Source of the DNA: Enterovibrio baiacu
Lineage (GTDB): Bacteria > Pseudomonadota > Gammaproteobacteria > Enterobacterales > Vibrionaceae
Reading direction: 5' to 3'
Assembly: GCF_004120195.1 (NCBI RefSeq)
Contig: NZ_SCHN01000007.1
Location: 124,001-188,000 of the forward strand
DNA: 64,000 bases
Part shown: positions 8,463-20,988 of the stretch, in pieces
How the letters are laid out: the number at the start of each line of letters is the position of its first letter
Numbering within the stretch: the first letter of the stretch is position 1
Notes under the pieces: generated by a model
The model's input: only the letters and a program-made list of their open reading frames with translations
The model's database searches: none
Told to the model about the DNA's origin: nothing
Program-made: the position numbers and the translations under genes

Positions 8463-9494
8463 ATGCCACATCGTACGTTTATGAAGTTTATGTGGCCGTC
8501 TTTATTGGTCATGTTTCTGCTTATTGCATTGCCTATCGTGTCTGTATTTGTTCAGTCATTGCACGTAGAGCATGAGCAGATAGTGCTTGAGACGGAAAAC
8601 TGCGGGCCGTTTGGTTGTAAGAAAACGGTATCCGTTGATAGGGAAGCGACTGACAAACTGCGCGAAGAAGAGCCCCTTGGACGCTTTAACGGGCTAGATA
8701 CCTATACAAACCGCAGCCATTTGGCCTTTGAAAATGTGTCGGAAGCGTGGCGTTCAACGGATTCGCTCGGCAGTTTTGTCAACGGCTTGATGAACCTGCC
8801 TTTCTATAAGGCGTTGGTTTTCACTTTGGCATACACCTTTATCGTTACACCCTGCGTGATCTTTTTCGGCATGGTGGTCGCTCTGTGTGTGAATGCGTTG
8901 CCCAAGTTGGTAAAAGGCCCCACGATTTTCTTGTCGCTCCTGCCCATGATCGTGACGCCATTGATTGGTTCATTGATCTTGTTTTGGATGATAGATGCGG
9001 ATGGCGTTATCGGTGCAACCATTCAAAACTGGTTTCAAGACGATAGCTTATCGTTAAAAGCATCGCCTGCTTTGACCTGGATAACGCTATTTGTGTATGG
9101 CATTTGGTCTTCCATTCCTTTCTCTTTCATTGTGTTTTACGCCGGGCTACAAACGGTGCCTACAGACACGTTAGAGGCCTCAATGATAGACGGTGCATCA
9201 CGTTGGGAAACCATCCGATATGTTGTGATGCCGCACATGGCGCCGTTGGTGACGTTTGTGGCCTTGATGCAGCTGATGGACAACTTCCGTGTGTTCGAGC
9301 CCATTGTGGGTTTTGCGGCGGAGGCACATGCGACGTCGTTAAGTTGGTTGATCTTCAACGATCTTCGCGGCACGGATTCGCAATTGTTTGGCTCCGCAGG
9401 GGCGACCTCCATGCTCACTATTCTTGGTGTGGCTATCTTGCTTATGCCTGTGTTCATCAGAACATGGCGTGATTTCAACCGTAAATCGGCGTAG
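8463..9494 (+). CDS. ABC transporter permease (MalF/UgpA type)
   Basis: 343 residues with about six membrane spans; the first is near residues 11-33. A periplasmic insert of about 80 residues follows span 1, as in MalF-like subunits, and carries the Cys pair CGPFGC (residues 47-52), which could form a disulfide. The cytoplasmic EAA loop is EASMIDGASRWETIRYVVMP, the contact site for the ATPase. AAAGGAGT precedes the start. It forms the channel together with the permease at 9504-10382. Confidence 0.94.
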   Translation: MPHRTFMKFMWPSLLVMFLLIALPIVSVFVQSLHVEHEQIVLETENCGPFGCKKTVSVDREATDKLREEEPLGRFNGLDTYTNRSHLAFENVSEAWRSTDSLGSFVNGLMNLPFYKALVFTLAYTFIVTPCVIFFGMVVALCVNALPKLVKGPTIFLSLLPMIVTPLIGSLILFWMIDADGVIGATIQNWFQDDSLSLKASPALTWITLFVYGIWSSIPFSFIVFYAGLQTVPTDTLEASMIDGASRWETIRYVVMPHMAPLVTFVALMQLMDNFRVFEPIVGFAAEAHATSLSWLIFNDLRGTDSQLFGSAGATSMLTILGVAILLMPVFIRTWRDFNRKSA

Positions 9495-9503
9495 GAGTTC
9501 ATC

Positions 9504-10382
9504 ATGGAAGAAGTGCGTAGAAAGCCGATTTGGCTGAAAACACTGTCGATTGGGTTCGTGATTGTTTGGCTATTGATTGCCGCAGGCCCGTTCCTTTGGA
9601 CTGCGTGGGGTTCGTTTAAGGTTCAAGCGGATTTTTTCTCAAAATCTGATTGGATGAATGCGATTTATGGCGTGAAAACCTTACTCGAAACGGGTGGAGA
9701 ATTTACGGGGCAGGGCTACTACGGCGCTTGGATTGAGCAGGATTTTTGGCTTGCGGCGATTAACACGTTCGTTGTGGTGTTTTCTGTTGTGATCATTTCA
9801 CTCACCATTGGCACCTTGGGTGGGTACGCGTTGGCGCGTTCTGGCTTTCGATATTCACTGTGGATTTTGATGATTGCCTTGGTGCTGCGTGCAATGCCAC
9901 ACATCACCTTGGTGTCTGGTTACATGTTGCCTTTCTTTGAATGGAATTTATGGGGGCATTTAGGCACCACCATTATTGTGTTGGTCGCGATTAATCAACC
10001 CTTCACGCTTTGGATGTTGCACTCCTTCTTCTTGAACATTCCGAAAGACATGGATGAGAGCGCCATGGTGGATGGCTGCACGCGATTCCAAGCATTCCGA
10101 CATGTGATCATTCCAGTGATGTGGCCGGGGGTGATTACGACTGGCTTGTTCAGTTTCTTGCTCGCTTACAACGATTTCGCTGTAACAGGCATGTTGCTGA
10201 GTCAAGACAACCAAACCATGGTGCCGAAAATCGCGAGTTTCTTGGGGACGACACAGGTTGAAGGGAACGTGATGTTTGCCGTTGCCGCTGTGGTTTCTGC
10301 GATGATCCCTTTGTTCTTCCTTGTTCTGTTCTTCCAAAAACAAATTGTGTCAGGCTTAACTGCCGGTGCAGTGAAGGGGTAG
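9504..10382 (+). CDS. ABC transporter permease (MalG/UgpE type)
   Basis: 292 residues and six predicted spans, the usual size for MalG-like subunits. The EAA loop is seen as ESAMVDGCTRFQAFRHVIIP. A longer periplasmic stretch after span 1 (about residues 35-85) is somewhat extended. It begins nine bases after the previous stop with TAGGAG as ribosome-binding site, and is followed after three bases by a SnoaL-like gene, so the four plus-strand genes form one operon. Confidence 0.94.
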   Translation: MEEVRRKPIWLKTLSIGFVIVWLLIAAGPFLWTAWGSFKVQADFFSKSDWMNAIYGVKTLLETGGEFTGQGYYGAWIEQDFWLAAINTFVVVFSVVIISLTIGTLGGYALARSGFRYSLWILMIALVLRAMPHITLVSGYMLPFFEWNLWGHLGTTIIVLVAINQPFTLWMLHSFFLNIPKDMDESAMVDGCTRFQAFRHVIIPVMWPGVITTGLFSFLLAYNDFAVTGMLLSQDNQTMVPKIASFLGTTQVEGNVMFAVAAVVSAMIPLFFLVLFFQKQIVSGLTAGAVKG

Positions 10383-10385
10383 GGA

Positions 10386-11420
10386 ATGCCACAAGAGTTA
10401 CAAGATGCCAAGCAACGTGTTTTGGCGTTCTATCGAGCGCTTGATCGTGCTGCGACGCTAGATGTACCAAAGGTGCTGGAAACACATTGCAGTGCTGATT
10501 ACCAGTGGCGCGGTTGCCACCCCTTCAATGAATTGGAGGGGCAAAACGCCGTCAGTGAGCAATTCTGGCAACCGTTGAAAACCAGTCTAAAAAAACTGCA
10601 ACGCCGTCAGGATATTTTCATGGCGGGTGAAAACAGCTTGGCGTCTGACGGCTCTGTGTGGGTGGTCTCTATGGGCCATCTGATGGGGTTGTTTGATTGT
10701 GATTGGCTCGGCATTACCAAAACCGGACGCATGGGTTTTCTGCGCTATTGCGAGTTCACACAGGTGGTAGAAGGCAAGATCGCGCAGTCAGCCATGTTTA
10801 TGGATATTCCAGGCTTGATGGTTCAAGCCGGTGTGAACCCCTTCATGCCGCAAACCGGCGCACAGCTTATTCAACCAGGACCAATGAACCATTATGGTTT
10901 GATGTTTGATGAACAACGCGCTGAGGAGTCGGCAAAAACACTGTCAGTGATTAATCAAATGATCACCGACTTAGGTAACTGGGATCATGACTTGAGCCTT
11001 GAAGAAGAGCTTGCCTTGAGTTGGCATGACGACATGATCTGGTGGGGGCCGACAGGCATTGGTGCGAGTTATTCCATCGAGCGTTATGCCAAACAACATT
11101 CTGGGGTGTTCAGGTCAAGTTTCTCTGAGCGTGTCTTTAACGGCCATGTGTGTAAGTTTGCAGAAGGCGAGTTTGGCGGTTTTTTTGGTTGGCCAAACCT
11201 TTCGCTTAAACCCGCTGGTGGGTTTATGGGGCTGCCCGCCAGCGACACGTTCTTCGACATGCGCGTGATCGATATCTATCGACGTGACGGCAATAAGTTA
11301 GCTGAAAACTGGGTATTTATCGATTTACTGCATTTCTTCCATCAACAGGGCGTCGATCTTCTGGCGAGAAACCAATACCTCAACGCGGAAACCCAATGTG
11401 ACGTCACAACACGTTTGTAG
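10386..11420 (+). CDS. Double SnoaL/NTF2-like protein
   Basis: 344 residues in two SnoaL-like halves (about 10-160 and 185-335). The first half has FLRYCEFTQVVEGKI; the second has FFDMRVIDIYRRDGNKLAENW and ends FIDLLHFFHQQGVDLLA, matching the proteins at 2670-3725 and 5102-5638. No export signal is seen. It is the last gene of the ABC importer operon. Having such genes in both arms of the divergent island suggests that this fold is central to the pathway. The chemistry is unknown. Confidence 0.85.
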   Translation: MPQELQDAKQRVLAFYRALDRAATLDVPKVLETHCSADYQWRGCHPFNELEGQNAVSEQFWQPLKTSLKKLQRRQDIFMAGENSLASDGSVWVVSMGHLMGLFDCDWLGITKTGRMGFLRYCEFTQVVEGKIAQSAMFMDIPGLMVQAGVNPFMPQTGAQLIQPGPMNHYGLMFDEQRAEESAKTLSVINQMITDLGNWDHDLSLEEELALSWHDDMIWWGPTGIGASYSIERYAKQHSGVFRSSFSERVFNGHVCKFAEGEFGGFFGWPNLSLKPAGGFMGLPASDTFFDMRVIDIYRRDGNKLAENWVFIDLLHFFHQQGVDLLARNQYLNAETQCDVTTRL

Positions 11421-11572
11421 CCGCTGAGGTGACTGCGTTGCCAATACACAAAGACGGGTGTCGTGACTTTTTTCTTTTGGCCCTGCGGGTATCGCTTATT
11501 TTCTCTTAAGCATCGGTGGTATTATCTACGGATGAAATGAAACGGGAAATGCATACCCGCGACGGAGTCAAA

Positions 11573-12094
11573 ATGGCAAAACTATCGTTACAAGAACAAA
11601 TGTTACAAGCTGGCTTAATCGACAAAAAGAAAATGAAAAAAGCCGGTAAGACATCGAAAAAATCACGCACTTTGGCGAAAGAGGCGAAAGCCGCGGTCGA
11701 AGAGAAGCGCACAGCCCAAGTCGCTCAAGATCAGGCGCTCAATCGTCAGAAAGAAGAAGAAGCGAAGAAGAAAGCGATCGCAGCCCAAGTGAAGCAACTT
11801 GTGGAAATGAACAAGATTGATCGTAAAGACGGTGACATTGGCTACAACTTCACCGACGGCACGTTGGTGAAGAAGCTCTACGTTGATAAAGACACTCAAG
11901 CGCAGCTAGTGAATGGACGTTTGGCCATTGCTCGCTATCTGGATGGTTATGCCATCGTTCCTGGCGTGGTCGCGGATAAAATCAGCCAGCGTGATGAAGA
12001 GACGATCATCGTGAACAACACGGTTGATGAACAAGCCATTGATGAAGATGACCCATACGCAGACTTCAAGATCCCTGATGATTTGATGTGGTAA
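11573..12094 (+). CDS. yaiL: DUF2058 family protein (YaiL-like)
   Basis: 173 residues from an ATG with GGAG five bases upstream; an in-frame start at 11516 adds residues unlike the family. The N-terminal half is very basic and helical (KKKMKKAGKTSKKSRTLAKE), consistent with nucleic-acid or ribosome association. The C-terminal half contains the conserved IGYNFTDGTLVKKLYVD segment and an acidic tail. E. coli YaiL belongs to DUF2058 and has no established function. It stands alone and ends before a strong bidirectional hairpin. Confidence 0.85.
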   Translation: MAKLSLQEQMLQAGLIDKKKMKKAGKTSKKSRTLAKEAKAAVEEKRTAQVAQDQALNRQKEEEAKKKAIAAQVKQLVEMNKIDRKDGDIGYNFTDGTLVKKLYVDKDTQAQLVNGRLAIARYLDGYAIVPGVVADKISQRDEETIIVNNTVDEQAIDEDDPYADFKIPDDLMW

Positions 12095-12160
12095 TCTTCA
12101 AAGAATAACCAAAACGTCGTGGGTTGTGCTTTTAAGCGAATTAGCGATGTTATTCAAACG

Positions 12161-12197
12161 AACACCCCCAATGGCTAAATAGGTCATTGGGGGTGTT
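12161..12197. terminator. Bidirectional hairpin between convergent genes
   Basis: AACACCCCCAATG and CATTGGGGGTGTT form a perfect 13-bp stem with an 11-base loop. A T-rich stretch follows on the plus strand. It serves the DUF2058 gene and probably also the VtrC-like gene. Confidence 0.8.
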
Positions 12198-12207
12198 TGA
12201 TTTATGG

Positions 12208-12639
12208 CTAGTAGAAACAGCGGAAAGCTGAATTTAGAAGCGTCATTTCTGAACGGCCACTAAAGACGAGTGAGCATTGTTCGTCAATATAGTAAGCGCG
12301 ACTGTGTCGAATCGTCGATGGTTCATCATTGCCGAGAACAATGTAGTCACCGCCTTTGGATTTATCATATTTGTAGTGATAATCAGTTGCTTTAAGGTTC
12401 ACCTCAGCGTCATCTAACTTTGAATAAATGGCTTTACCTACCAATTCCGTCTTGTGCAAGTTAATGTACGTTGCCCAACGGTGTCCAAGCGCTTCCATTT
12501 TGCCAAACATCTGTACTGTTGAACTCTCAGCAACATAGAGAAGCAGGCCATTCAATGCCAACAGGCATAACAGAATGGTGACCTTATGAGCATTGAAGTA
12601 AAAGCTGATTTTTTTCATAGATGCATTCATGGTTATCAA
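12208..12639 (-). CDS. VtrC/ToxS-like membrane partner of the adjacent ToxR-like regulator
   Basis: 143 residues: a short cytoplasmic N-terminus, one membrane span (about 18-37) and a periplasmic domain of about 105 residues rich in beta-strand, with two Cys (DEQCSL and FRCFY). Its start overlaps the 3' end of the ToxR-like gene by 56 bases, a layout known from vtrA/vtrC in Vibrio parahaemolyticus. Sequence similarity to VtrC or ToxS is not obvious by eye, so the call rests on topology, size and linkage. It probably stabilises the partner or forms a joint periplasmic sensor, perhaps for a small lipid such as bile salt. Start codons at 12630 or 12618 are alternatives. Confidence 0.6.
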   Translation of the reverse strand: MITMNASMKKISFYFNAHKVTILLCLLALNGLLLYVAESSTVQMFGKMEALGHRWATYINLHKTELVGKAIYSKLDDAEVNLKATDYHYKYDKSKGGDYIVLGNDEPSTIRHSRAYYIDEQCSLVFSGRSEMTLLNSAFRCFY

Positions 12640-13243
12640 TTATCACGATGGTTTTGCCATTTTCTAACGTTTTCATGTCTGGGTAGGGCCTAGCATGAAA
12701 AACATTTTCAAAATCTGCTTTGTAGTAAAGTGCTCTGCCTGCTTCCCATACATTGAAAACAGTGAGAAGCCCTAGGACAATAAATACGCCAACCCAGCAT
12801 TTATGGAGGCGCGTGCTAGGGTTAGCGTTCAAAGGCAGCTCAGGGGAGAGCGTTCTTTCTTCGTCTTCTTTAGGCTCAGTGGCGGCATCAGAGAAAACCG
12901 GCACTGACGGAGATTCGAAATTCAGTGAATAACCTACACTTGGGGCGTTAACCAAAATACGCTTGGTATCGTCTTCAATTGCATGACGTGTCCGATTAAT
13001 GAGCTGAGGCAAACTTTCAGCAGATGTGTGCTTAGAACCCCACACATTTTCAATGATTTGGTCATTCGTTAACGTTTTTGGATGCGCATCATAAAGGCAC
13101 TTCAGTAGCTGGTACTGCTTAAGCGTGAGTATAATTTGCTTCTTGCTGTCCGTTGATTCCGAACCTTCTATTCGGGTCAAGGTTCGAGACTCCACTTCCC
13201 ATGTAAAGTTACCTAATATCAATTTATTACAATTTTTATTCAT
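12584..13243 (-). CDS. ToxR/VtrA-like transmembrane transcriptional regulator
   Basis: 219 residues. Residues 10-108 form an OmpR/ToxR-type winged helix, with LTLKQYQLLKCLYDAHPKTL, then IIENVWGS and the wing LVNAPSVGYSL. A linker of about 40 polar residues follows, one membrane span lies at about 149-167, and a short periplasmic domain of about 50 residues has two Cys near the end. Such proteins bind DNA while anchored in the inner membrane and sense periplasmic signals. The overlapping downstream gene supplies the likely periplasmic partner. No target genes are evident; the nearest neighbours are the HTH-like orphan and the SAHH-like operon. Confidence 0.85.
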   Translation of the reverse strand: MNKNCNKLILGNFTWEVESRTLTRIEGSESTDSKKQIILTLKQYQLLKCLYDAHPKTLTNDQIIENVWGSKHTSAESLPQLINRTRHAIEDDTKRILVNAPSVGYSLNFESPSVPVFSDAATEPKEDEERTLSPELPLNANPSTRLHKCWVGVFIVLGLLTVFNVWEAGRALYYKADFENVFHARPYPDMKTLENGKTIVIIDNHECIYEKNQLLLQCS

Positions 13244-13453
13244 GGGTAAATAGCGATTCAGGCTGGTTTTGATGGTCAGAGAACTATACGCGATTACAGA
13301 ATAAATGTGAAGTTCGTCACCTTATCGTGTTGTTGATTCTAGTCATCTTATTGTGAATAACTATGTTCATTTGAACGAAAAATTGACGAATATGCTGACA
13401 TGTTCAGAGGTGGGTAGCTTTGGCTTTGATCGGCACACGCAATCGTAATAAAA

Positions 13454-13481
13454 AAGCCCCTGATCGTTTACGATTGAGGGC
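13454..13481 (-). terminator. Rho-independent terminator of the 13508-14074 gene
   Basis: On the minus strand GCCCTCAATCG and CGATCAGGGGC form a stem with internal mismatches and a TAAA-like loop, followed by TTTTTT. It lies 27 bases past the stop. Confidence 0.75.
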
Positions 13482-13507
13482 TTCAATGTCACGGTTTGCG
13501 TTGAAGA

Positions 13508-14074
13508 TTAATCCAGCGCAACAGGCCCCTGAAGCTCTTTCAGGATCATTTTTTGAATGTCGATACCTATTGTCATAACGATTAGGCTCCAGTTCAAAAA
13601 GGGCAGAGACCCATTCTCAATGCCGTGCGCGAAGTTCGATGCATTCCAATGGAAAACCGTCGAAAGCCTCTCTGTCGTTAGCGACTCATAGTTTGCATTA
13701 TCTATCAAATTGCTGAACTGTTCTGGCGTCGGGCAAAGGAACTTGTCATTTGGTCTAAAAGCCGTTGGCTTGAAGTAGGACAGCACCTTCCTCACATTCA
13801 CCTCAATAACGTCACCGTTACTTTGAATGTTCGGCTTACCCGCTAGCGCACATAAGAAACACCAACATGGATAAGGGATTGAAGAGAGGTTGTCGGGTTC
13901 GTTTTTGTAACGTGCTGTCCAAGCATTCACGTTCTTCGGTTGCAATCCTGTCACTTTTGCCAATTGAACGGCGTCATAACCATTGTCTTTCAATAAGTTA
14001 ATGATTGCTGCAACTTCCGACACAAAGGGTTTTGTCCATCGGCTAAAAGGCGCAAGTGTTGTATCTCTAATCAT
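13508..14074 (-). CDS. HTH-like protein of unknown role
   Basis: 188 residues, no membrane segment. Residues 18-55 (EVAAIINLLKDNGYDAVQLA, then VTGLQPKNVNAWTARY) look like a helix-turn-helix in which the second helix plus a W/R pair contacts DNA. It is followed by SIPYPCWCFLCALAGKP, similar to the I-P-x-x-x-W-x-x-L-C-x-x-A-G tail I associate with small XRE-like regulators on mobile elements. The C-terminal 100 residues are unrecognised. It is divergent from the SAHH-like operon across a 384-base AT-rich region, so it could regulate that operon; this is inference from position only. Confidence 0.55.
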   Translation of the reverse strand: MIRDTTLAPFSRWTKPFVSEVAAIINLLKDNGYDAVQLAKVTGLQPKNVNAWTARYKNEPDNLSSIPYPCWCFLCALAGKPNIQSNGDVIEVNVRKVLSYFKPTAFRPNDKFLCPTPEQFSNLIDNANYESLTTERLSTVFHWNASNFAHGIENGSLPFLNWSLIVMTIGIDIQKMILKELQGPVALD

Positions 14075-14342
14075 GGCTGAATTAAATCTTATCTTTAAAC
14101 AAACAGTAGGTTTGCTTCATTGTAACCTTGACCGGAATCATACGTGCCTCGCCTTATAAGTCCACATTTATCGGGTGTGCGGTGGAAGGTAAAACGAACG
14201 TGTGTGTTTGTCATTGGAACCCCGTGCCTGTGGCTATTTTGGTCTGTTCACTGTCTTCGCGCATGTTAAGCCTATACCTCCATATGAAATTGTAGGCACT
14301 GTCGGCTATTCCATTTCTTCGTATCCAGTATGCGACAAAATA

Positions 14343-14358
14343 CATATAGGTCTATATG
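14343..14358. promoter_or_regulatory. Perfect palindrome, operator candidate
   Basis: CATATAG-GT-CTATATG has 7-bp perfect arms. It lies about 100 bases upstream of the SAHH-like gene. A related half (CCATATGAAATTG) occurs about 70 bases further upstream. The binding protein is unknown; the divergent HTH-like protein is a candidate. Confidence 0.4.
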
Positions 14359-14433
14359 GAATTGATTGCGTGAAATTTTTTGTCATCTCACGCCCTCTTA
14401 AATTTCTGGAAGGGTCACCCTTTTCAAAGAAAG

Positions 14434-14447
14434 TTAGACATATCTAA
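14434..14447. promoter_or_regulatory. Small inverted repeat next to the ribosome-binding site
   Basis: TTAGA-CATA-TCTAA has 5-bp perfect arms and ends just before the AGAGGA ribosome-binding site of the gene starting at 14459. A bound repressor here would block initiation. Confidence 0.3.
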
Positions 14448-14458
14448 TAGAGGACGTG

Positions 14459-15514
14459 ATGACAAAGCTCATTCAATTAATTCAAGAAATCAAACGAGAA
14501 TATAGCCCTATATCCTTAACCTTTCTTAATCAGCAGCTTAGGAGAGTGCAGAGGGATAAGCCTTATGCGGGAAAAACGATATTACATAATTTGCCTCTTA
14601 CCCATGAAACCTTAATAAAGCTCGAAGTGTTGTATGCAGGCGGTGCTGACGTCTTAGTGACTTCCCCAAGTTTCATGGAGGTAGAACCAGACCTGCTTGA
14701 TCGATTTATTCAGGCGGGTGGACGTTGGTTTGATGACGTCCCTGAGGATGCACACATTGATATTTGCCTTGACTGTGCAGGCGAGTTGATTGGAAAGGTC
14801 AGGCCCAGTATCGGTTGTGTAGAAATCACGGGCACGGGGACGAACAAATACACTGCCGCAAACCTCGATTATCCGGTGATATCCGTGGACATGAGCAAGG
14901 TAAAGGCACTCGAGGCGATGCTAGGTACGGGGGAAGCGTTTGTTCGTGCATTCAGTGAACTGACAGAGACCACTGTCGATAATCAGCACTTCTTGGTCAT
15001 GGGGTATGGAAAGGTGGGGCAAGGGATTGCGCACCATTTGCAGCCACATACATCCAGTATCTCTGTCGTAGACAAAAAAGCCGAACACTTAGCGTTAGCT
15101 AAGCAAAGAGGCTTCAATGCTATCGATGCTGCTGACAAATCACTCGTTGAGGCCGCTGCAAGAGAATCTTTTTGTATTGTTACTGCAACGGGCATTGAGA
15201 GTGTGGTTTCTGACAATTACGATGCACGGGAGTTTCTTCACGCACAGTACCTCGCCAATATGGGCGGGGAGGATGAATTTGGTACAGGCTTCCCTGCTGG
15301 TCGAGTGATGTGTGATGCTAAGCCCATCAATTTTTTTGTTGATAGCCCTACCTTAATGCACTATTTGGATCCCGTCTTTTACTCACACAATTTAGGCGTA
15401 GAGTTGTTGAGTTTCTCTCGGTTAGCGCCTGGTGTGCATGCATTCCCTGACTTTATTGCTAATGAATTGGTTGAGCAGTGGCAACGCCTTCACCAAGAGG
15501 GAGTGCATATATGA
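14459..15514 (+). CDS. S-adenosylhomocysteine hydrolase-like Rossmann protein
   Basis: 351 residues from an ATG four bases after AGAGGA; a GTG at 14456 is too close to it. The order of segments follows SAHH: NLPLTHETLIKLEVL (SAHH CLHMTVQTAVLIETL), VEITGTGTNKY (SAHH EETTTGVHNLY), VISVDMSKVKALEAMLGTGE (SAHH NDSVTKSKFDNLYGCRE), the NAD loop GYGKVG at 182-187, and ANMGGEDEFG (SAHH CNIGHFDVE). It is about 80-120 residues shorter than SAHH. The SAHH His of CLHMT and the His of NIGH are replaced by Pro and Gly, so a different reaction or a binding role is likely. It overlaps the next gene (ATGA). Confidence 0.8.
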   Translation: MTKLIQLIQEIKREYSPISLTFLNQQLRRVQRDKPYAGKTILHNLPLTHETLIKLEVLYAGGADVLVTSPSFMEVEPDLLDRFIQAGGRWFDDVPEDAHIDICLDCAGELIGKVRPSIGCVEITGTGTNKYTAANLDYPVISVDMSKVKALEAMLGTGEAFVRAFSELTETTVDNQHFLVMGYGKVGQGIAHHLQPHTSSISVVDKKAEHLALAKQRGFNAIDAADKSLVEAAARESFCIVTATGIESVVSDNYDAREFLHAQYLANMGGEDEFGTGFPAGRVMCDAKPINFFVDSPTLMHYLDPVFYSHNLGVELLSFSRLAPGVHAFPDFIANELVEQWQRLHQEGVHI

Positions 15515-16395
15515 AGCAGCTTAAGACGTTATTGACGGAATGCAAAAAGAAAGCGCGTCGTGGTGAAAGATGTGCAATTTTTACCGAAGTAGAATCTGCG
15601 TATAAAAATCACTACAAGATCCCTCATTACAGTTTCAATACCAGTGACACTTTGAGCGCCAACATCGGCATTCAAATTGCGGACATTTATGATTCGGCTG
15701 AATCTCTTCCCCAAAATGTGTTGGTGGCAGCGGCTTATCAAAAAATGATTGATGAAGTGATGGCTCAATTTGAATATTTGCAACAAAGTAAGATGGCATT
15801 GACGGTAGAACCCTACTTTTGTAACGGTGAACCGTATGCATCGAGCGCTGAAATGCTTTTAGATTTACTCGATTTTCATATGTATTTTTTGCCGACACAA
15901 AGCGCTTTTGGTGAATCAATACCACACGAAAATCATCCGATGTTAGAGAAAACGGGGATGATGGTGGGGGACTATGAACTGGTCGTGAATGATGTATTTC
16001 GTATCGTCCATGATATTTTCGGACATGCTTCCTACGGCTATAGCTTTGGCCCAATCGGCGAGGACATGGCATGGCTGGTTCACTCTCGCATGTTTTCTCC
16101 TTTGGCGCGCGCTGCGATTACCACGGAAACGCGAGGGCAGAATAGTTGGGTTAATTGGGGGCCTCACATGCGCAACCGTGATAATCAACTCATACCTGAA
16201 AACGATAGCGCTTGGCTCGCGCCCGATCAGAGGCCATTTGCGGAACAAAAAATATTCTTGATGCCAGAATACGTAAGCGGGGTGAAAGTCTACCTAGATG
16301 ATGAACAGCGCGTTTGTGCTGAGGAAATCATTGGGTGGGATCCTTACATTAGTTTTTGTAAACCCAAGGAGGCGTCACGTCATGTTGCAGTTTGA
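15511..16395 (+). CDS. HDxFGH-signature protein, possible metal-dependent enzyme
   Basis: 294 residues, cytoplasmic, no classical family assigned. The core is IVHDIFGHASYGYSFGPIGE, then HSRMFSPLARAAITTETRGQ and NSWVNWGPH, and later RPFAEQKIFLMPEY. From memory, very similar signatures occur as one domain inside large phage and mobile-element polyproteins; here the domain forms a free-standing gene. The HDIFGH spacing (H167, H172) equals the iron-binding His pair of bacterial phenylalanine hydroxylase, and E206 lies 34 residues later, near the place of its Glu ligand. An iron site is therefore a reasonable inference but unproven. The start overlaps the SAHH-like stop; AAGAGGGAG precedes it. Confidence 0.7.
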   Translation: MKQLKTLLTECKKKARRGERCAIFTEVESAYKNHYKIPHYSFNTSDTLSANIGIQIADIYDSAESLPQNVLVAAAYQKMIDEVMAQFEYLQQSKMALTVEPYFCNGEPYASSAEMLLDLLDFHMYFLPTQSAFGESIPHENHPMLEKTGMMVGDYELVVNDVFRIVHDIFGHASYGYSFGPIGEDMAWLVHSRMFSPLARAAITTETRGQNSWVNWGPHMRNRDNQLIPENDSAWLAPDQRPFAEQKIFLMPEYVSGVKVYLDDEQRVCAEEIIGWDPYISFCKPKEASRHVAV

Positions 16396-16792
16396 GCAAG
16401 CGTATTTAAGCACCATATATCGCGTGTATTCCCCTTCTTGTGAGGTCGATATCCGTATTAAGCAACACAACCAAGCGTTGGTTAATTTGTGTAAAGACAA
16501 CGGGATTAATACATGGGCTGTGATTACTGGTTTTAACCCTCATTCGCAAGAGGCTGATGCGTCGTTTAACCTTGAGGCCAACCAAACACTTGGTCGAGAG
16601 TTAACACAGTTGGGTTTCAAGCATCTCTCCGCAGATGGCGTACCTGCTGATGACAGTTGGCAACCCGAAGCCAGCTTCTTTGTCTTTAATATTTCTTTAC
16701 CACAGGCCGCATCACTGGGACGGAAGTTTAGGCAAAATGCCATTGTTGTTGGCGATGAGTTAGGGTTTTCTGAATTGGTATGGCTTAGGTAG
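16382..16792 (+). CDS. DUF3293 domain protein
   Basis: 136 residues from an ATG nine bases after AAGGAGG, overlapping the previous gene by 14 bases. Matching features of DUF3293 are an N-terminal YLSTIYRVYSP, the central WAVITGFNP (residues about 41-49), an L-x-x-LGFKHL segment with acidic or polar spacer, EASFFVFNI, and the C-terminal RQNAIVVGDELGFSELVWL. The family is small, soluble and uncharacterised. Tight overlap with the two upstream genes implies a shared function. It ends just before a strong hairpin. Confidence 0.8.
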   Translation: MLQFEQAYLSTIYRVYSPSCEVDIRIKQHNQALVNLCKDNGINTWAVITGFNPHSQEADASFNLEANQTLGRELTQLGFKHLSADGVPADDSWQPEASFFVFNISLPQAASLGRKFRQNAIVVGDELGFSELVWLR

Positions 16793-16793
16793 A

Positions 16794-16827
16794 AAAACGG
16801 TGGCCATGTAAGATTGGCCACCGTTTT
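16794..16827. terminator. Bidirectional terminator hairpin
   Basis: AAAACGGTGGCCA and TGGCCACCGTTTT form a perfect 13-bp stem with an 8-base loop between the DUF3293 gene (plus) and the HTTM-DCC gene (minus). Confidence 0.85.
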
Positions 16828-16904
16828 ATGGTATTGATGGTGCGCATGGTTGTCATGACTGCGCTAAGCACAATTAGCTGTGATGCCTTGCTGGAACCAT
16901 TATC

Positions 16905-18707
16905 CTATTTCTTTGCATACTCTTTGAAACACCAATGTGTCCATACTTTTACTCTTGAGGGTTTACGCGGCATATAGTTTGGCATGGTTCTCAGTCGTTC
17001 AAACTCTATCGTGAAAGATGCCAACTGCTTTTCTTTGGGCAACGCTTGGCTATTCCATTGCTTGCAAAGATAGCCGCCATAACCTGAGAGTGCTTGTTTG
17101 TTGCGCTTAGATTGCAGCCTTCCAAAATATTTTCTCCAACGATAATTTTTAAATTCAGTGGATAGAAGTTCTGGTATTACCCGGCTAGGTGCCTCAGCCT
17201 TCATCTTCCAAACATCTACCACGTCTTTCCCTCTAGTTCTGCCTTCGATGACGGGCATCAAGGTGTACTTAAAGGGGGAAGGCGCAAACATACCCCAGTG
17301 TTGGTCAATGCGAAGTACTTTCGCGGGTATCGAGACATGTTGAGGGCGCTTAATGTGAAACTGCTGAACGCCACTCACGTTGTAGTAAGTCACAATGTAA
17401 AGAGCACCCAAGGCAACGCAATTTTCTATGTAGCCAGCGTGATCTTTTTGGTCGTTATAAGGCAGAAAACGCTCGGTGATTCTTCCCATTTTATCTCGAT
17501 TATCCGCGATCCAACGATAGAGTCTATTTCCAATCCTCAATAGGGGTTTCCATCCCATAACAATACCGATGAGTCTAAAAAGGATCGACACTTTAAACAG
17601 GTATTGCACGCCATTCCAGTGAGTGTGTAAGCCACCTTGATGATCGCGAAGTACCCAACTGTTTTCTCGTTCCATGATGGGATAAATGTCGGGGTTCTGC
17701 TGTGCAGGATGTATTTTTACGCTGTCTGGCAGAAGAAAGTTCCGCAGAATTAGGCAGGTTTTCTTGCAGAAACCACAGCCTTCATCATAGAAAATAACGA
17801 TGTCCCTTCGTTTCGGTTTGGCATTGAATTTCGCTAGCCAGTCCCAACACACTCCCGGTATGAGCAAGCTCAGTGACATAAAGTCGATAAATGGGAAAAG
17901 GACAATGTGGAGAGAAAGAAAGAAGGCACAGTGCATGACGATCAACAGTGCAAGTGTCAATAATCGCAATTGAACGTGGAAAATAGGTGAGAAAACCAGA
18001 AATATCGCAATGATTTCTAGATACCAGACGAAGTAAGTGCCAAAGGTCAAAAGTAGCGGAAAGTCTCTCATCCAAACGGCAAACACAGTGGCGAGTTGAT
18101 CGATATGAACCGCGTAGTATGCGGCGTCCATGGTGACCCGCCAATCATCTGATGTTTTCAATAATGCGGTGAAAAAATACAAATACATCACTTGAAGAAG
18201 AACGGCGACCGAGACAACTGAGAAGTATTTGTGGTCGGCAGGTATTGCATTTTCATCCGCTTTATATCGACGATTTAGCGAACTATCTATTGAAAACCTT
18301 GCACCAATAGGCAATAGGATGGCCCAAAAACACATAACGACGAGCAGTACATCACCGCCACTTACAATCACACTGTTTCGATTTACGATAGAGAAAAGAA
18401 AAATCCAGCTAATAAACGCCATGATTCTGGATTTGTAGCCAACGAGGAGCAGGAGAGCGACGAGTGCAGCGATGACAAAGAGCAGTGTGGCGAACCATTC
18501 ACTGCCATTCATCCAATAAAGTGAAAGCCGATATTCGGAGGAAAGCGCCATGGATGCTGTGCGACTCAGTAGCCCGTCATCCGTATAGAACGTAGTGATG
18601 TCACGCGCTCTACTGATCAGATCAATCAGAATCATTAAAGCGAGACCGATACGGAATAATGCTAATGTACGTAAGTCGATACCGAATACTGTTTTGAAAG
18701 AAGTCAT
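16905..18707 (-). CDS. HTTM-DCC fusion membrane protein
   Basis: 600 residues counted from the ATG at 18707; a GTG at 18719 would add four. The first 295 residues have about eight membrane spans and resemble the HTTM domain related to vitamin K-dependent gamma-carboxylase (early LFRIGLALMILIDL, then YFFTALLKTSDDWR). Around residues 303-420 follows a DCC-type thioredoxin-like domain with IVIFYDEGCGFCKKTC, whose CxxC pair lies near residues 311-314. The remaining 180 residues include WGMFAPSPFKYT, usual in HTTM proteins. Function is unknown; redox or vitamin K-like chemistry at the inner membrane is possible. It converges on the SAHH-like operon. Confidence 0.8.
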   Translation of the reverse strand: MTSFKTVFGIDLRTLALFRIGLALMILIDLISRARDITTFYTDDGLLSRTASMALSSEYRLSLYWMNGSEWFATLLFVIAALVALLLLVGYKSRIMAFISWIFLFSIVNRNSVIVSGGDVLLVVMCFWAILLPIGARFSIDSSLNRRYKADENAIPADHKYFSVVSVAVLLQVMYLYFFTALLKTSDDWRVTMDAAYYAVHIDQLATVFAVWMRDFPLLLTFGTYFVWYLEIIAIFLVFSPIFHVQLRLLTLALLIVMHCAFFLSLHIVLFPFIDFMSLSLLIPGVCWDWLAKFNAKPKRRDIVIFYDEGCGFCKKTCLILRNFLLPDSVKIHPAQQNPDIYPIMERENSWVLRDHQGGLHTHWNGVQYLFKVSILFRLIGIVMGWKPLLRIGNRLYRWIADNRDKMGRITERFLPYNDQKDHAGYIENCVALGALYIVTYYNVSGVQQFHIKRPQHVSIPAKVLRIDQHWGMFAPSPFKYTLMPVIEGRTRGKDVVDVWKMKAEAPSRVIPELLSTEFKNYRWRKYFGRLQSKRNKQALSGYGGYLCKQWNSQALPKEKQLASFTIEFERLRTMPNYMPRKPSRVKVWTHWCFKEYAKK

Positions 18708-19494
18708 CAACAATTCCACTGCTTGCTAGTTATTTGTGCGTTGAGTAAATAGAAATGGACATTAACCAAAGTGTTACTCATTAATAAAGGTTTTTATTAT
18801 AGTTGTTACAGTTCTTTTTAATGTGCTAGGCCTTATATTTGCTCATGACGATTTGGCGTATTCTAATTATTCCAACTTTCAATACTTCTATCGGTGCTGT
18901 GGATTAAGTAGCGCCCTTAAGGGGAAAAAAAGAGGGGAATCAAGATGTGCTCGTTGCAAAAGAGTTGGTGCTGTGAGCTTCATAGCGATATGGATGTAGT
19001 CTCAAAGTGAAGGTTGAAGGAGCACAACACTCTCAAGAGTGCCGAAAAGGGGCGGGCTTAAAAGGCGATGAGTAGCGCCTTGTCCATTGACTTCAACGAG
19101 CAATCATTCATCCGTAAACAAAGTGATTTTTTCTAGTTAGGGCGCAAAGTAAAAAAGCAGCCTTAGATAGCGTGAATTGAATAGAGAAACTCTAAAGCAA
19201 TATTCATTTATTTAAATGTTTTCATCCTATATTTAACCCTCAAATTTTCTTTATCTGGTAAATTTCGGCGAGTCGTGTTCCTATTGTCTTTACTACGCGG
19301 GATAATCATTTTTTCTGGTGCGTGGCTTTGTTTTTTTCTATTTGTTCAGCAGTTAAAGTCAATGTTATCGACGTTATTTTTCGTAGAGGTTAATACATAT
19401 TTTGCGTGAACTTCAGCATGACAGCGGCTTTCTTAATAATGCCGTGTTTCCCGCGAAAATCACAAGCGCAGCACTTGGCTGCGCTTGTGGTCAA
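18708..19494. other. 787-base region without a recognisable gene
   Basis: AT-rich DNA between two minus-strand genes. Short open frames show no coding character. It holds small hairpins (CACTCT-CA-AGAGTG at 19028-19041 and AAGGCG-N8-CGCCTT at 19062-19081) and a terminator-like stem at 19461-19489. A purine-rich stretch near 18920-19080 could be a transcribed leader or small RNA, but there is no positive evidence. Confidence 0.4.
19461..19489 (-). terminator. Hairpin downstream of the M32 peptidase gene
   Basis: CACAAGCGCAGC and GCTGCGCTTGTG form a perfect 12-bp stem with a 5-base loop, six bases past the minus-strand stop. The T-run after it on the minus strand (ATTTTC) is short. Confidence 0.6.
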
Positions 19495-20988
19495 TTAATC
19501 ATTCAAGTAACGTTGAATCAAATGTTGCTTAAAGTATTCCGGGTTCAGCGGCTCCCCCGTCGCCTGAATGACGAGCTCTTCGGTGGAAAGCGTTGAACCT
19601 TTCGACCACACATTTTCTTCCAACCACGCACTGATTGGTGCCAAATCGAGGTTCTTTAAACACGCATCCACATCGACGGTTTTGCGCATTGCAGCCATGA
19701 ATTGCGCCGCATACATGGCACCTAATGTGTAAGACGGAAAATAGCCGAAACTTCCGTCGGTCCAGTGGATATCCTGCATACAGCCATTGGTGTAGTCGCC
19801 GTCTGTTGATAGACCTAAGTATTCCTGCATTTTCTCATTCCATAGGGCTGGAATATCTTCGACGTCAATCTTCCCTTCCATCAGATCTCTTTCGATTTCA
19901 TAGCGGAGAATAACGTGTGCGGGGTAAGTCACTTCATCGGCATCTACACGAATAAAACCGGGTTGAACGCGATGATAGAGTGCGTTCATGTTATCGACTG
20001 CAAATGCAGGGTCGGACTGTCGGTCAAACGCTTCTGAAGCCATCTTGGCGAGGTGTTCGACGAAGAGAGGGCTTCGTCCTAACTGCATTTCAAAAAACAG
20101 ACTTTGGCTTTCATGGATGCCCATAGATCGTGCTTCGCCAGCCGGGGAGTTGTGAAAGGCTTTCGGCAAGCCTTGCTCATATCGCGCATGGCCAGTTTCG
20201 TGGATCACGCCCATGATCGCTGAGGTAAAATCTTCTTCATCGTAGCGAGTGGTGAGACGAACATCTGACGGCACGCCGCCGCAAAATGGGTGGGCGCTGA
20301 CATCGAGGCGGCCGTGATTGAAATCGAATCCAATCACTTCCATGAAGCGCTTGCCCAGTTCGGCTTGCAATGACGTGTCGAACGGCCCCTTAGGCTGATT
20401 TACATCAACAGATTTCTGTTTTTCGATCACGGATTGCGTGAGTGCTGGAAGCCATGTTTTGAGATCGCCAAAGAGGGCATCCAGTTTCTCTGTGGTCATG
20501 CCCGGCTCATAGAGGTCAAGCATAGCGTTGTATGGCGTTAAACCCGTTTGTCTAGCGCGAATCTGTGCTTCTTGGCGAGAGACGTCTACAACGCGCTTGA
20601 GGTTGGTAGAAAACCCTTCCCAGTCGTTGTTTGGGCGTTGTGCGCGCCATGCGTGTTCACAGGTTGAGCCCAATAACGATTTTGATTCGACAAGATCCGC
20701 GGGCAATACGGTGGCTTGTTCCCAAACTCGTTTCATCTCGCGAAGGTTGATTTTGTCAGAGTCACTCAATGATGCCATGTTGGTTTCTGCATCTTTTATC
20801 CATTTGCCCATGTCATCGGCGGTGAGGGTTTCGTGACACAGCAAGGCTAAATCGCTCATGGCTTGCGCGCGAACATCGTTGCCGCCTGACGGCATCATTG
20901 CAGCTTGGTCCCAACCGCAAATCGCAGCAAGATGCTGATAGCTAGAGAGCTTCTTGAATTGTTGTTCAAGTTTTTTCATTGAATCCAT
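19495..20988 (-). CDS. Carboxypeptidase Taq (M32) metallopeptidase
   Basis: 497 residues, the normal length of M32 enzymes. The zinc motif HETGH (GVIHETGHARYEQGLP) is in the middle, with the M32 landmarks DVRLTTRYDEEDF before it, MGIHESQSLFFE after it, and HVILRYEIERDL and IHWTDGSFGYFPSYTLG near the C-terminus. The enzyme removes C-terminal residues from peptides in the cytoplasm. The start at 20988 is supported by GGAAG at suitable distance; ATG 20979 is also possible. It is monocistronic and divergent from the gamma-glutamylcyclotransferase-like gene. Confidence 0.95.
   Translation of the reverse strand: MDSMKKLEQQFKKLSSYQHLAAICGWDQAAMMPSGGNDVRAQAMSDLALLCHETLTADDMGKWIKDAETNMASLSDSDKINLREMKRVWEQATVLPADLVESKSLLGSTCEHAWRAQRPNNDWEGFSTNLKRVVDVSRQEAQIRARQTGLTPYNAMLDLYEPGMTTEKLDALFGDLKTWLPALTQSVIEKQKSVDVNQPKGPFDTSLQAELGKRFMEVIGFDFNHGRLDVSAHPFCGGVPSDVRLTTRYDEEDFTSAIMGVIHETGHARYEQGLPKAFHNSPAGEARSMGIHESQSLFFEMQLGRSPLFVEHLAKMASEAFDRQSDPAFAVDNMNALYHRVQPGFIRVDADEVTYPAHVILRYEIERDLMEGKIDVEDIPALWNEKMQEYLGLSTDGDYTNGCMQDIHWTDGSFGYFPSYTLGAMYAAQFMAAMRKTVDVDACLKNLDLAPISAWLEENVWSKGSTLSTEELVIQATGEPLNPEYFKQHLIQRYLND

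Follow-up and report, generated by a model that had tools for sequence, protein, structure and literature searches.

What might a bacterium do with three overlapping genes, one encoding a divergent relative of S-adenosylhomocysteine hydrolase (SAHH), one a domain frequently found in phage polyvalent proteins and one a DUF3293 protein? The question is raised by positions 14,459 to 16,792 of a 64,000-nucleotide stretch of Enterovibrio baiacu DNA (hereafter the window; RefSeq assembly GCF_004120195.1, contig NZ_SCHN01000007.1, positions 124,001 to 188,000 of the forward strand), which is carried by a genome of 5.37 Mb. We refer to the three genes as AHCYL, HDFGH and DUF3293, and to all of them together as the trio. 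The trio is a conserved, co-inherited module, and we propose tentatively, with slightly less than even confidence, that it is a horizontally moving cassette of three enzymes that processes S-adenosylmethionine (SAM) or a close derivative of it. A first-pass annotation of the window had described the genes as one unit and suggested that they serve either modification or biosynthesis or a conflict with phages; our analysis confirmed the observation itself and partly supported its interpretation.

Three overlapping genes form one operon-like block

AHCYL (14459-15514, plus strand, 351 aa) overlaps HDFGH (15511-16395, plus strand, 294 aa) by 4 bases, and HDFGH overlaps DUF3293 (16382-16792, plus strand, 136 aa) by 14, with all three frames being open. 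Shine-Dalgarno-like stretches precede each of the starts (GAGGA before 14459, GAGGGA before 15511 and AAGGAGG before 16382), and the last stop is followed by a perfect 13-bp hairpin (16794-16827; -23.2 kcal/mol, z score -6.08), whose stability was equalled by none of 200 shuffled sequences. This hairpin lies between convergent genes and is probably a bidirectional terminator; its T run is part of the stem, and a consensus terminator scanner did not list it. The overlaps, ribosome-binding stretches and terminator-like hairpin on which the first-pass annotation had based its three-gene unit were thus all present, and the trio genes constitute one operon-like block.

The trio genes are inherited together

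Scanning genome contigs with an AHCYL alignment, we confirmed 39 AHCYL loci from 236 pattern matches. An intact HDFGH gene adjoins AHCYL at 12 of these loci, and hidden Markov model (HMM) searches of the fetched stretches detected DUF3293 in all 12 and in none of the other 27. The 12 trio loci are spread over three phyla, with six found in Bacteroidota, three in Alphaproteobacteria, two as copies in a single gammaproteobacterium of the BD1-7 clade and one in the actinomycete Actinophytocola algeriensis. A thirteenth AHCYL locus with a trace of HDFGH, that of Rhodobacteraceae bacterium KLH11 (L148:4674-5369), holds only short fragments of HDFGH (a 32-residue scrap) and AHCYL, and is probably a decayed trio. 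The two copies of the BD1-7-clade genome are near-identical together with their flanks and lie on two contigs (L134 and L135), reflecting either a duplication or assembly redundancy.

When 36 whole genomes were searched (L126, L114 and L135 being left out), HDFGH turned up in all 10 trio genomes and was absent from 25 of the 26 genomes harboring AHCYL only, the remaining one being KLH11 with its scrap. Among 397 genomes of the family to which the host of L112 belongs, HDFGH (E ≤1e-10) occurred in two, both already known, and an HDFGH profile run against 369 genomes of the class retrieved the window and one other contig. Close relatives of AHCYL (E ≤1e-30) were found in the own genome and in 6 of 368 genomes of the class, and in the own genome and 1 of 397 genomes of the phylum. 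Taken together, the genome, family and class searches indicate that the unit occurs rarely and in scattered hosts, and that the linkage is tight for HDFGH of the trio type but not for every HDFGH domain. Rare co-occurrence, which the first-pass annotation had named as speaking against a system, was accordingly not observed for HDFGH, whereas AHCYL (27 of 39 loci) and DUF3293 (19 of 60 relatives of the host) do also occur outside a trio.

HDFGH was further found in four records of actinobacterial plasmids. On the Microbacterium and Arthrobacter plasmids it constitutes the C-terminal part of hypothetical proteins of 450-470 aa (L004:3275-4669, L005:3233-4585 and L006:3191-4594), and neither DUF3293 nor AHCYL was matched in the fetched stretches of three plasmid loci and of one other gammaproteobacterial contig (L110).

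The arrangement of the genes is likewise conserved, HDFGH adjoining DUF3293 in 13 of 13 loci. The order AHCYL-HDFGH-DUF3293 is shared by the window, the Bacteroidota, the BD1-7-clade genome and Actinophytocola, and the order HDFGH-DUF3293-AHCYL by the three Alphaproteobacteria. Two of these lineages carry fusions: a 430-aa HDFGH-DUF3293 protein in the BD1-7-clade genome and, in Actinophytocola, a single protein of 812 aa that contains all three parts in the order AHCYL, HDFGH, DUF3293. Comparing distances among 12 trio members (the window and 11 loci, without the near-identical L135), we obtained correlations of 0.91 for AHCYL and HDFGH, 0.81 for AHCYL and DUF3293 and 0.83 for HDFGH and DUF3293, with 0 of 2000 permutations as high in each case. 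Such correlations would also be expected if whole lineages had descended together; contrary to plain lineage descent, the window sits among Bacteroidota in both the AHCYL and the HDFGH tree. The trio AHCYLs form one group with a support of 96/91 (39 rows, L148 being too short to include), and the trio HDFGHs form one group with a support of 99/96, located among viral and plasmid sequences in an unrooted tree. That the system is likely undescribed, as the first-pass annotation had put it, agrees with genes that go together and are sometimes fused, and with a search of one open-access literature library, which found no paper naming DUF3293 or PF11697.

DUF3293 is very probably a homologue of phage SAM lyases

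The assignment of the third gene to DUF3293 (PF11697) in the first-pass annotation held up well, the protein scoring 74.1 bits against a cut-off of 25. Modeling it with AlphaFold2 from 12 sequences gave a predicted PII/ferredoxin-like fold (predicted local distance difference test, pLDDT, 94.4), and the first hit of this model in a Foldseek search of the PDB was 7ock_K ('MAT in complex with SAMH'; probability 0.99, root-mean-square deviation 2.7 Å, template modeling (TM) score 0.52/0.48), a chain that we take to be the T3 enzyme. No other hit among the best 50 of 354 exceeded a probability of 0.38. In the Foldseek library of viral structures the first hit was an annotated DUF3293, and annotated phage SAM hydrolases matched at E values of 1.7e-3 and 3.4e-3 (probability 1.00). 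Searching the PDB by sequence alone returned only chance-level hits.

Aligning the DUF3293 profile to that of eight phage SAMases with hhalign gave a score of 26.8 over 82 columns, as compared with at most 18.6 in 60 column shuffles; when 27 DUF3293 members were used, the score fell to 21.2, still above all 60 shuffles. The alignment pairs E96 with the Glu of the SAMase TE(E)xT motif and Q118 with the Gln of QDCVLV, and E96, S98 and Q118 are present in all 12 trio DUF3293s. In the predicted structure, strands 81-87 and 96-102 are joined by a loop, which E96 follows, and helix 106-115 and strand 120-125 have Q118 between them; we read these positions as the same places as those of the SAM-lyase Glu and Gln. 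PMC7877911 describes Glu69 of Svi3-3 as critical and Ser71 and Gln104 as contacting the ligand, and also reports rescue of an E. coli ilvA auxotroph by the phage lyase. PMC12255297 reports that E71 and Q108 alone, among the ligand-site residues compared in a SAM-AMP lyase, have structurally conserved counterparts in SAM lyase. The residues named for the two enzymes are matched in DUF3293 by E96/S98/Q118 and by E96/Q118, respectively. DUF3293 thus resembles T3 SAMase, Svi3-3 and SAM-AMP lyase in its E-x-S at the end of the T-loop, its B-loop Gln and its similar predicted fold, and differs from the phage SAM lyases in an identity of only ~11% in the profile alignment, and in being a bacterial protein that is paired with HDFGH in the trio.

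Beyond the trio, DUF3293 was found in 19 of 60 relatives (20 of 61 genomes with the own genome included), yet in none of the 17 that belong to the same genus, and HDFGH in none of the 60. These solo DUF3293 genes (L198, L199 and L201-L218) may encode independent cellular SAM-lyase-like proteins. In a wider alignment, from which 5 of 20 other loci were dropped as no suitable frame was picked, a Glu occupies the E96 column in only 4 of 15 solo proteins; by eye, a shift of one residue gives E-x-S/G in most of them.

We are highly confident that DUF3293 is a SAM-lyase homologue, and consider it likely, if less firmly so, that its substrate is SAM or a close relative. In the cited papers, phages and a CRISPR accessory gene are the sources of such SAM-cleaving lyases; DUF3293, present in 20 of the 61 genomes searched, can now be tested as their cellular counterpart.

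AHCYL is a divergent protein of the SAHH superfamily

The resemblance of AHCYL to SAHH noted in the first-pass annotation proved real: a profile of nine AHCYL members matched SAHH structures of the PDB at an E value of 2.3e-29 across the N-terminal and NAD-binding domains, though the Pfam and NCBIfam matches to SAHH are weak, and the NCBIfam score lies below the equivalog cut-off (64.4 vs 275 bits). Judged by its sequence, AHCYL belongs to the SAHH superfamily as a divergent NAD-binding protein. Like SAHH and S-inosylhomocysteine hydrolase, with which it aligns over both of these domains, it retains the nucleotide-binding glycines (GxGxxG) and the active-site Lys; unlike SAHH, a protein of 432 aa, it is shorter by ~80 residues. 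Using the SAHH numbering that we presume to apply, K149 stands at the position of Lys186 and E152, a Glu in place of the Asp that follows, at that of Asp190, while Pro46, Cys106, Ile123 and Gly270 of the window protein stand at His55, Asp131, Glu156 and His301. With catalytic residues lost and cut-offs missed, adenosylhomocysteinase was rejected as the function of AHCYL. E122, D144, K149, E152 and D304 are kept in all 39 aligned members.

The loss of SAHH catalytic residues would also fit a regulatory module, in which DUF3293 would be a PII-like sensor of SAM or S-adenosylhomocysteine (SAH), AHCYL a pseudo-enzyme binding NAD and a ligand, and HDFGH the sole enzyme. PstA chains among the weaker Foldseek hits of DUF3293 point the same way, as do AHCYLs outside the trio that are fused to a PAS histidine kinase (L022:4377-7013) or adjoin one (L020:108-2189, L025:3935-5824 and L140:3776-4756). 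We nevertheless regard such a module as quite unlikely, considering that E96, S98 and Q118 do not vary among the 12 trio DUF3293s, that the five AHCYL residues named above are kept in 39 of 39 members, and that no regulator or transporter common to the trio neighborhoods was seen in the open reading frame (ORF) lists or among the 25 of 99 Pfam families listed. The kinase-bearing contigs stem from Legionellales-type and other gammaproteobacteria, three of the kinases having response-regulator domains, and AHCYL linked to a kinase is possibly an SAHH-like producer or sensor of a signal.

Two AHCYL relatives that rank among the most distant, one in a Neomarinimicrobiota bin and one in an Actinomycetota bin, directly precede amidohydrolases (L145:4980-7338 and L147:4989-6853). 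In NCBIfam these amidohydrolases match, without reaching any cut-off, deaminases of methylthioadenosine/SAH and of 5'-deoxyadenosine along with other families. These matches lend mild support to thionucleoside chemistry in the wider AHCYL family, and bacterial routes of the S-inosylhomocysteine type are possible at these two loci.

HDFGH is a putative metal enzyme shared with phages

HDFGH is the solo form of the phage domain, and was modeled with a pLDDT of 91.2 by AlphaFold2. Across the 37 aligned rows, of which 12 are cellular and 25 viral, H167, D168, H172, H191, E206, T207, Q210 and K247 never vary, and these invariant residues make HDFGH look like an enzyme, putatively one that binds a metal. 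Scans with a single HDFGH protein detected no relative in viral or genome contigs, the relatives being found only with a wider alignment. None of the 37 members matched a Pfam family credibly, and so HDFGH was rejected as a known Pfam domain.

The HDxFGH motif resembles the H-E-x-x-G-H and later Glu of the aromatic amino acid hydroxylases (PheH, TPH and TyrH). Of 19 Foldseek hits in the PDB, 11 were such hydroxylases, none of them significant (best E 2.1, probability 0.02, TM score ~0.15). A first profile test against 6 PheH sequences found nothing; against 25, hhalign gave a score of 23.3 with a probability of 2%, consisting of an 11-residue local match at the motif that 1 of 100 column shuffles equalled, and runs in global mode were without a match. 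In contrast to the hydroxylases, HDFGH does not match PF00351, which is absent from the 22 families matched by the 37 members at E ≤1. With an alignment limited to the motif and no significant fold hit, we kept the aromatic amino acid hydroxylases only as a weak lead; an iron hydroxylase-like site is possible, though we lean against it.

The first-pass annotation had associated the HDxFGH signature with phage polyproteins, and rightly so. A tblastn search located the domain in 200 phage records, the protein matches phrog_3170 at an E value of 1.2e-17, and a scan of viral contigs confirmed at least 593 HDFGH stretches out of 600 candidates, making this a very common domain. Eighty viral loci (L026-L105) were kept for a closer look, and in 71 of them the frame containing HDFGH spans 800 codons or more, many of these frames being cut by the ends of the stretch. 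The domain in phage polyvalent proteins (Iyer et al. 2017, PMC5512222) is 31-49% identical to the window protein, which differs from these giant multidomain proteins in being a solo protein of 294 aa; the parts of PMC5512222 consulted contain no name for it. The trio offers a functional context for a domain that is common in viral contigs and has no Pfam family.

AHCYL and DUF3293 were not found by BLAST in the 80 viral loci. HMM searches of these loci and six phage records detected a DUF3293-like domain within the ORF of HDFGH at L002, L069, L040 and L030-L032; the last three share one distinct HDFGH sequence, and so the two domains are combined in four distinct phage ORFs. At L068 the DUF3293-like domain is encoded by another ORF than HDFGH, and among the 68 phage tails long enough to test, taken from 80 distinct HDFGH sequences, DUF3293 directly follows HDFGH in two. 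By eye, three of the five distinct phage DUF3293-like copies have a Gly at the position of the trio's Glu96, and may therefore not be lyases.

These phage links lend themselves to a different explanation, that of a conflict system: the trio would sense phage, and its SAM-lyase-like subunit would drain SAM or make a toxic or signaling nucleoside, leading to abortive infection, or else the trio would be a captured phage counter-defense. In keeping with this, HDFGH is frequent in phage polyvalent proteins, a DUF3293-like domain accompanies it in the four ORFs and at the fifth locus, the distribution of the trio is patchy, and T3 SAMase is described as counter-defense in the part of PMC7877911 cited here. 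The gene neighborhoods, a set of 56 neighbors drawn from the window and from the 10 trio loci other than L120 and L135, speak less for it. Some neighbors do match PADLOC models at E ≤1e-5 (mad8, mad3, mad2, CARF, WYL, Csa3, Cas3 and others); these amount to 20 models, each hit by one to three of the 56 neighbors, and we take them as putatively generic similarities of regulators and ATPases. None of the three trio proteins matches PADLOC at E ≤1, Pfam and NCBIfam recognize no nuclease or toxin domain in them, the 80 viral loci yielded no AHCYL, and the Pfam families of the neighbors (25 of 99 listed) are metabolic, regulatory or housekeeping ones. A defense role, having little support in the neighborhoods examined, therefore rests mainly on the phage links. 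Given that phage polyvalent proteins contain HDFGH as well as DUF3293-like domains, the conflict explanation keeps some weight, and we consider it unlikely. Of the two alternatives offered by the first-pass annotation, that of conflict thus received little support from neighborhoods and none from PADLOC, whereas DUF3293 and its SAHH-like partner favor SAM chemistry.

How the trio may process SAM

That the trio would be concerned with SAM chemistry follows from DUF3293 being a remote SAM-lyase homologue with a partner of the SAHH superfamily, and as these two and a putative metalloenzyme are inherited and fused together, a single SAM-processing module appears to be the best explanation. In such a module DUF3293, probably a trimer, would cleave SAM or a sulfonium relative intramolecularly, to give a lactone together with methylthioadenosine or its analogue. 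Using bound NAD and its retained Lys149/Glu152, AHCYL would transiently oxidize a hydroxyl of a thionucleoside-like compound in the manner of SAHH, but on a different substrate, and the His-Asp-His...Glu site of HDFGH would bind a metal, perhaps iron, and oxidize or hydrolyze an intermediate. The fusions suggest that the three proteins may act as a complex or relay, whose output would be a small SAM-derived metabolite or signal, or the clearance of an unusual one. In a bolder and rather unlikely version, this would be a new pathway, in which DUF3293 splits SAM, a repurposed SAHH and a new family of metalloenzymes make a metabolite or signal, and phages carry HDFGH for the same host chemistry. 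If true, SAM would be split by a cellular lyase and its products remodeled into a new SAM-derived metabolite or signal; the 812-aa fusion allows simple expression and assay of the unit as a whole.

Several observations weigh against SAM processing by the trio. The link of DUF3293 to SAMases is remote, with an hhalign probability of 22% (5% with 27 members) and a PDB Foldseek E value of 0.13, and the window DUF3293 does not match phrog_2226, for which the sole trio match is that of L119 at E 0.083 (T3 SAMase, 6.4e-54). Moreover, a PII-like protein can have a sensory instead of an enzymatic role. AHCYL, lacking counterparts of SAHH His55, Asp131, Glu156 and His301, may not act on a nucleoside, and neither fold nor profile searches gave a significant match for HDFGH. 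HDFGH also occurs without its partners, on actinobacterial plasmids, on a contig with tail-like genes and in phages, as does DUF3293 without HDFGH in the 19 relatives. Additionally, the trio DUF3293s do not form one group in the DUF3293 tree, being interspersed with long-branched solo copies from three relatives, and a search for a SAM or SAH riboswitch found none.

The trio lies within a variable stretch

To place the trio in its genus, the window was compared with the genus member whose carboxypeptidase is most similar to that of the window (92%). Positions 9280-12094 and 13533-14171 of the window align to it at 88%, and 19508-20112 align at 79%, further along in that genome. Positions 14172-19507 and 12095-13532 had no match in its fetched stretch. 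With flanks that align and 14172-19507 unmatched, the trio is located within a variable stretch. As a unit the trio is rare, and it looks horizontally acquired.

Such a rare accessory distribution would also suit a unit that breaks down or detoxifies a sulfonium or thionucleoside compound from the environment, as opposed to the cell's own SAM. Most of the named trio hosts (Aureispira, Aquimarina, Ulvibacter, Ruegeria and Pelagibius) belong to genera known from the sea; Actinophytocola, in contrast, is a soil genus, and no transporter was seen to recur beside the trio, so that we find this explanation distinctly improbable.

In addition to the trio, the variable stretch (14172-19507) contains the convergent neighbor at 16905-18719 (minus strand), whose 604-aa product carries a thiol-disulfide domain of the DCC1-like type. 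In the genus member used for comparison (L240:3844-15228), an apparent phosphonate C-P lyase cluster, recognized by eye, lies beside the counterpart of window position 14171, and the site of the trio may therefore be a spot of gene exchange.

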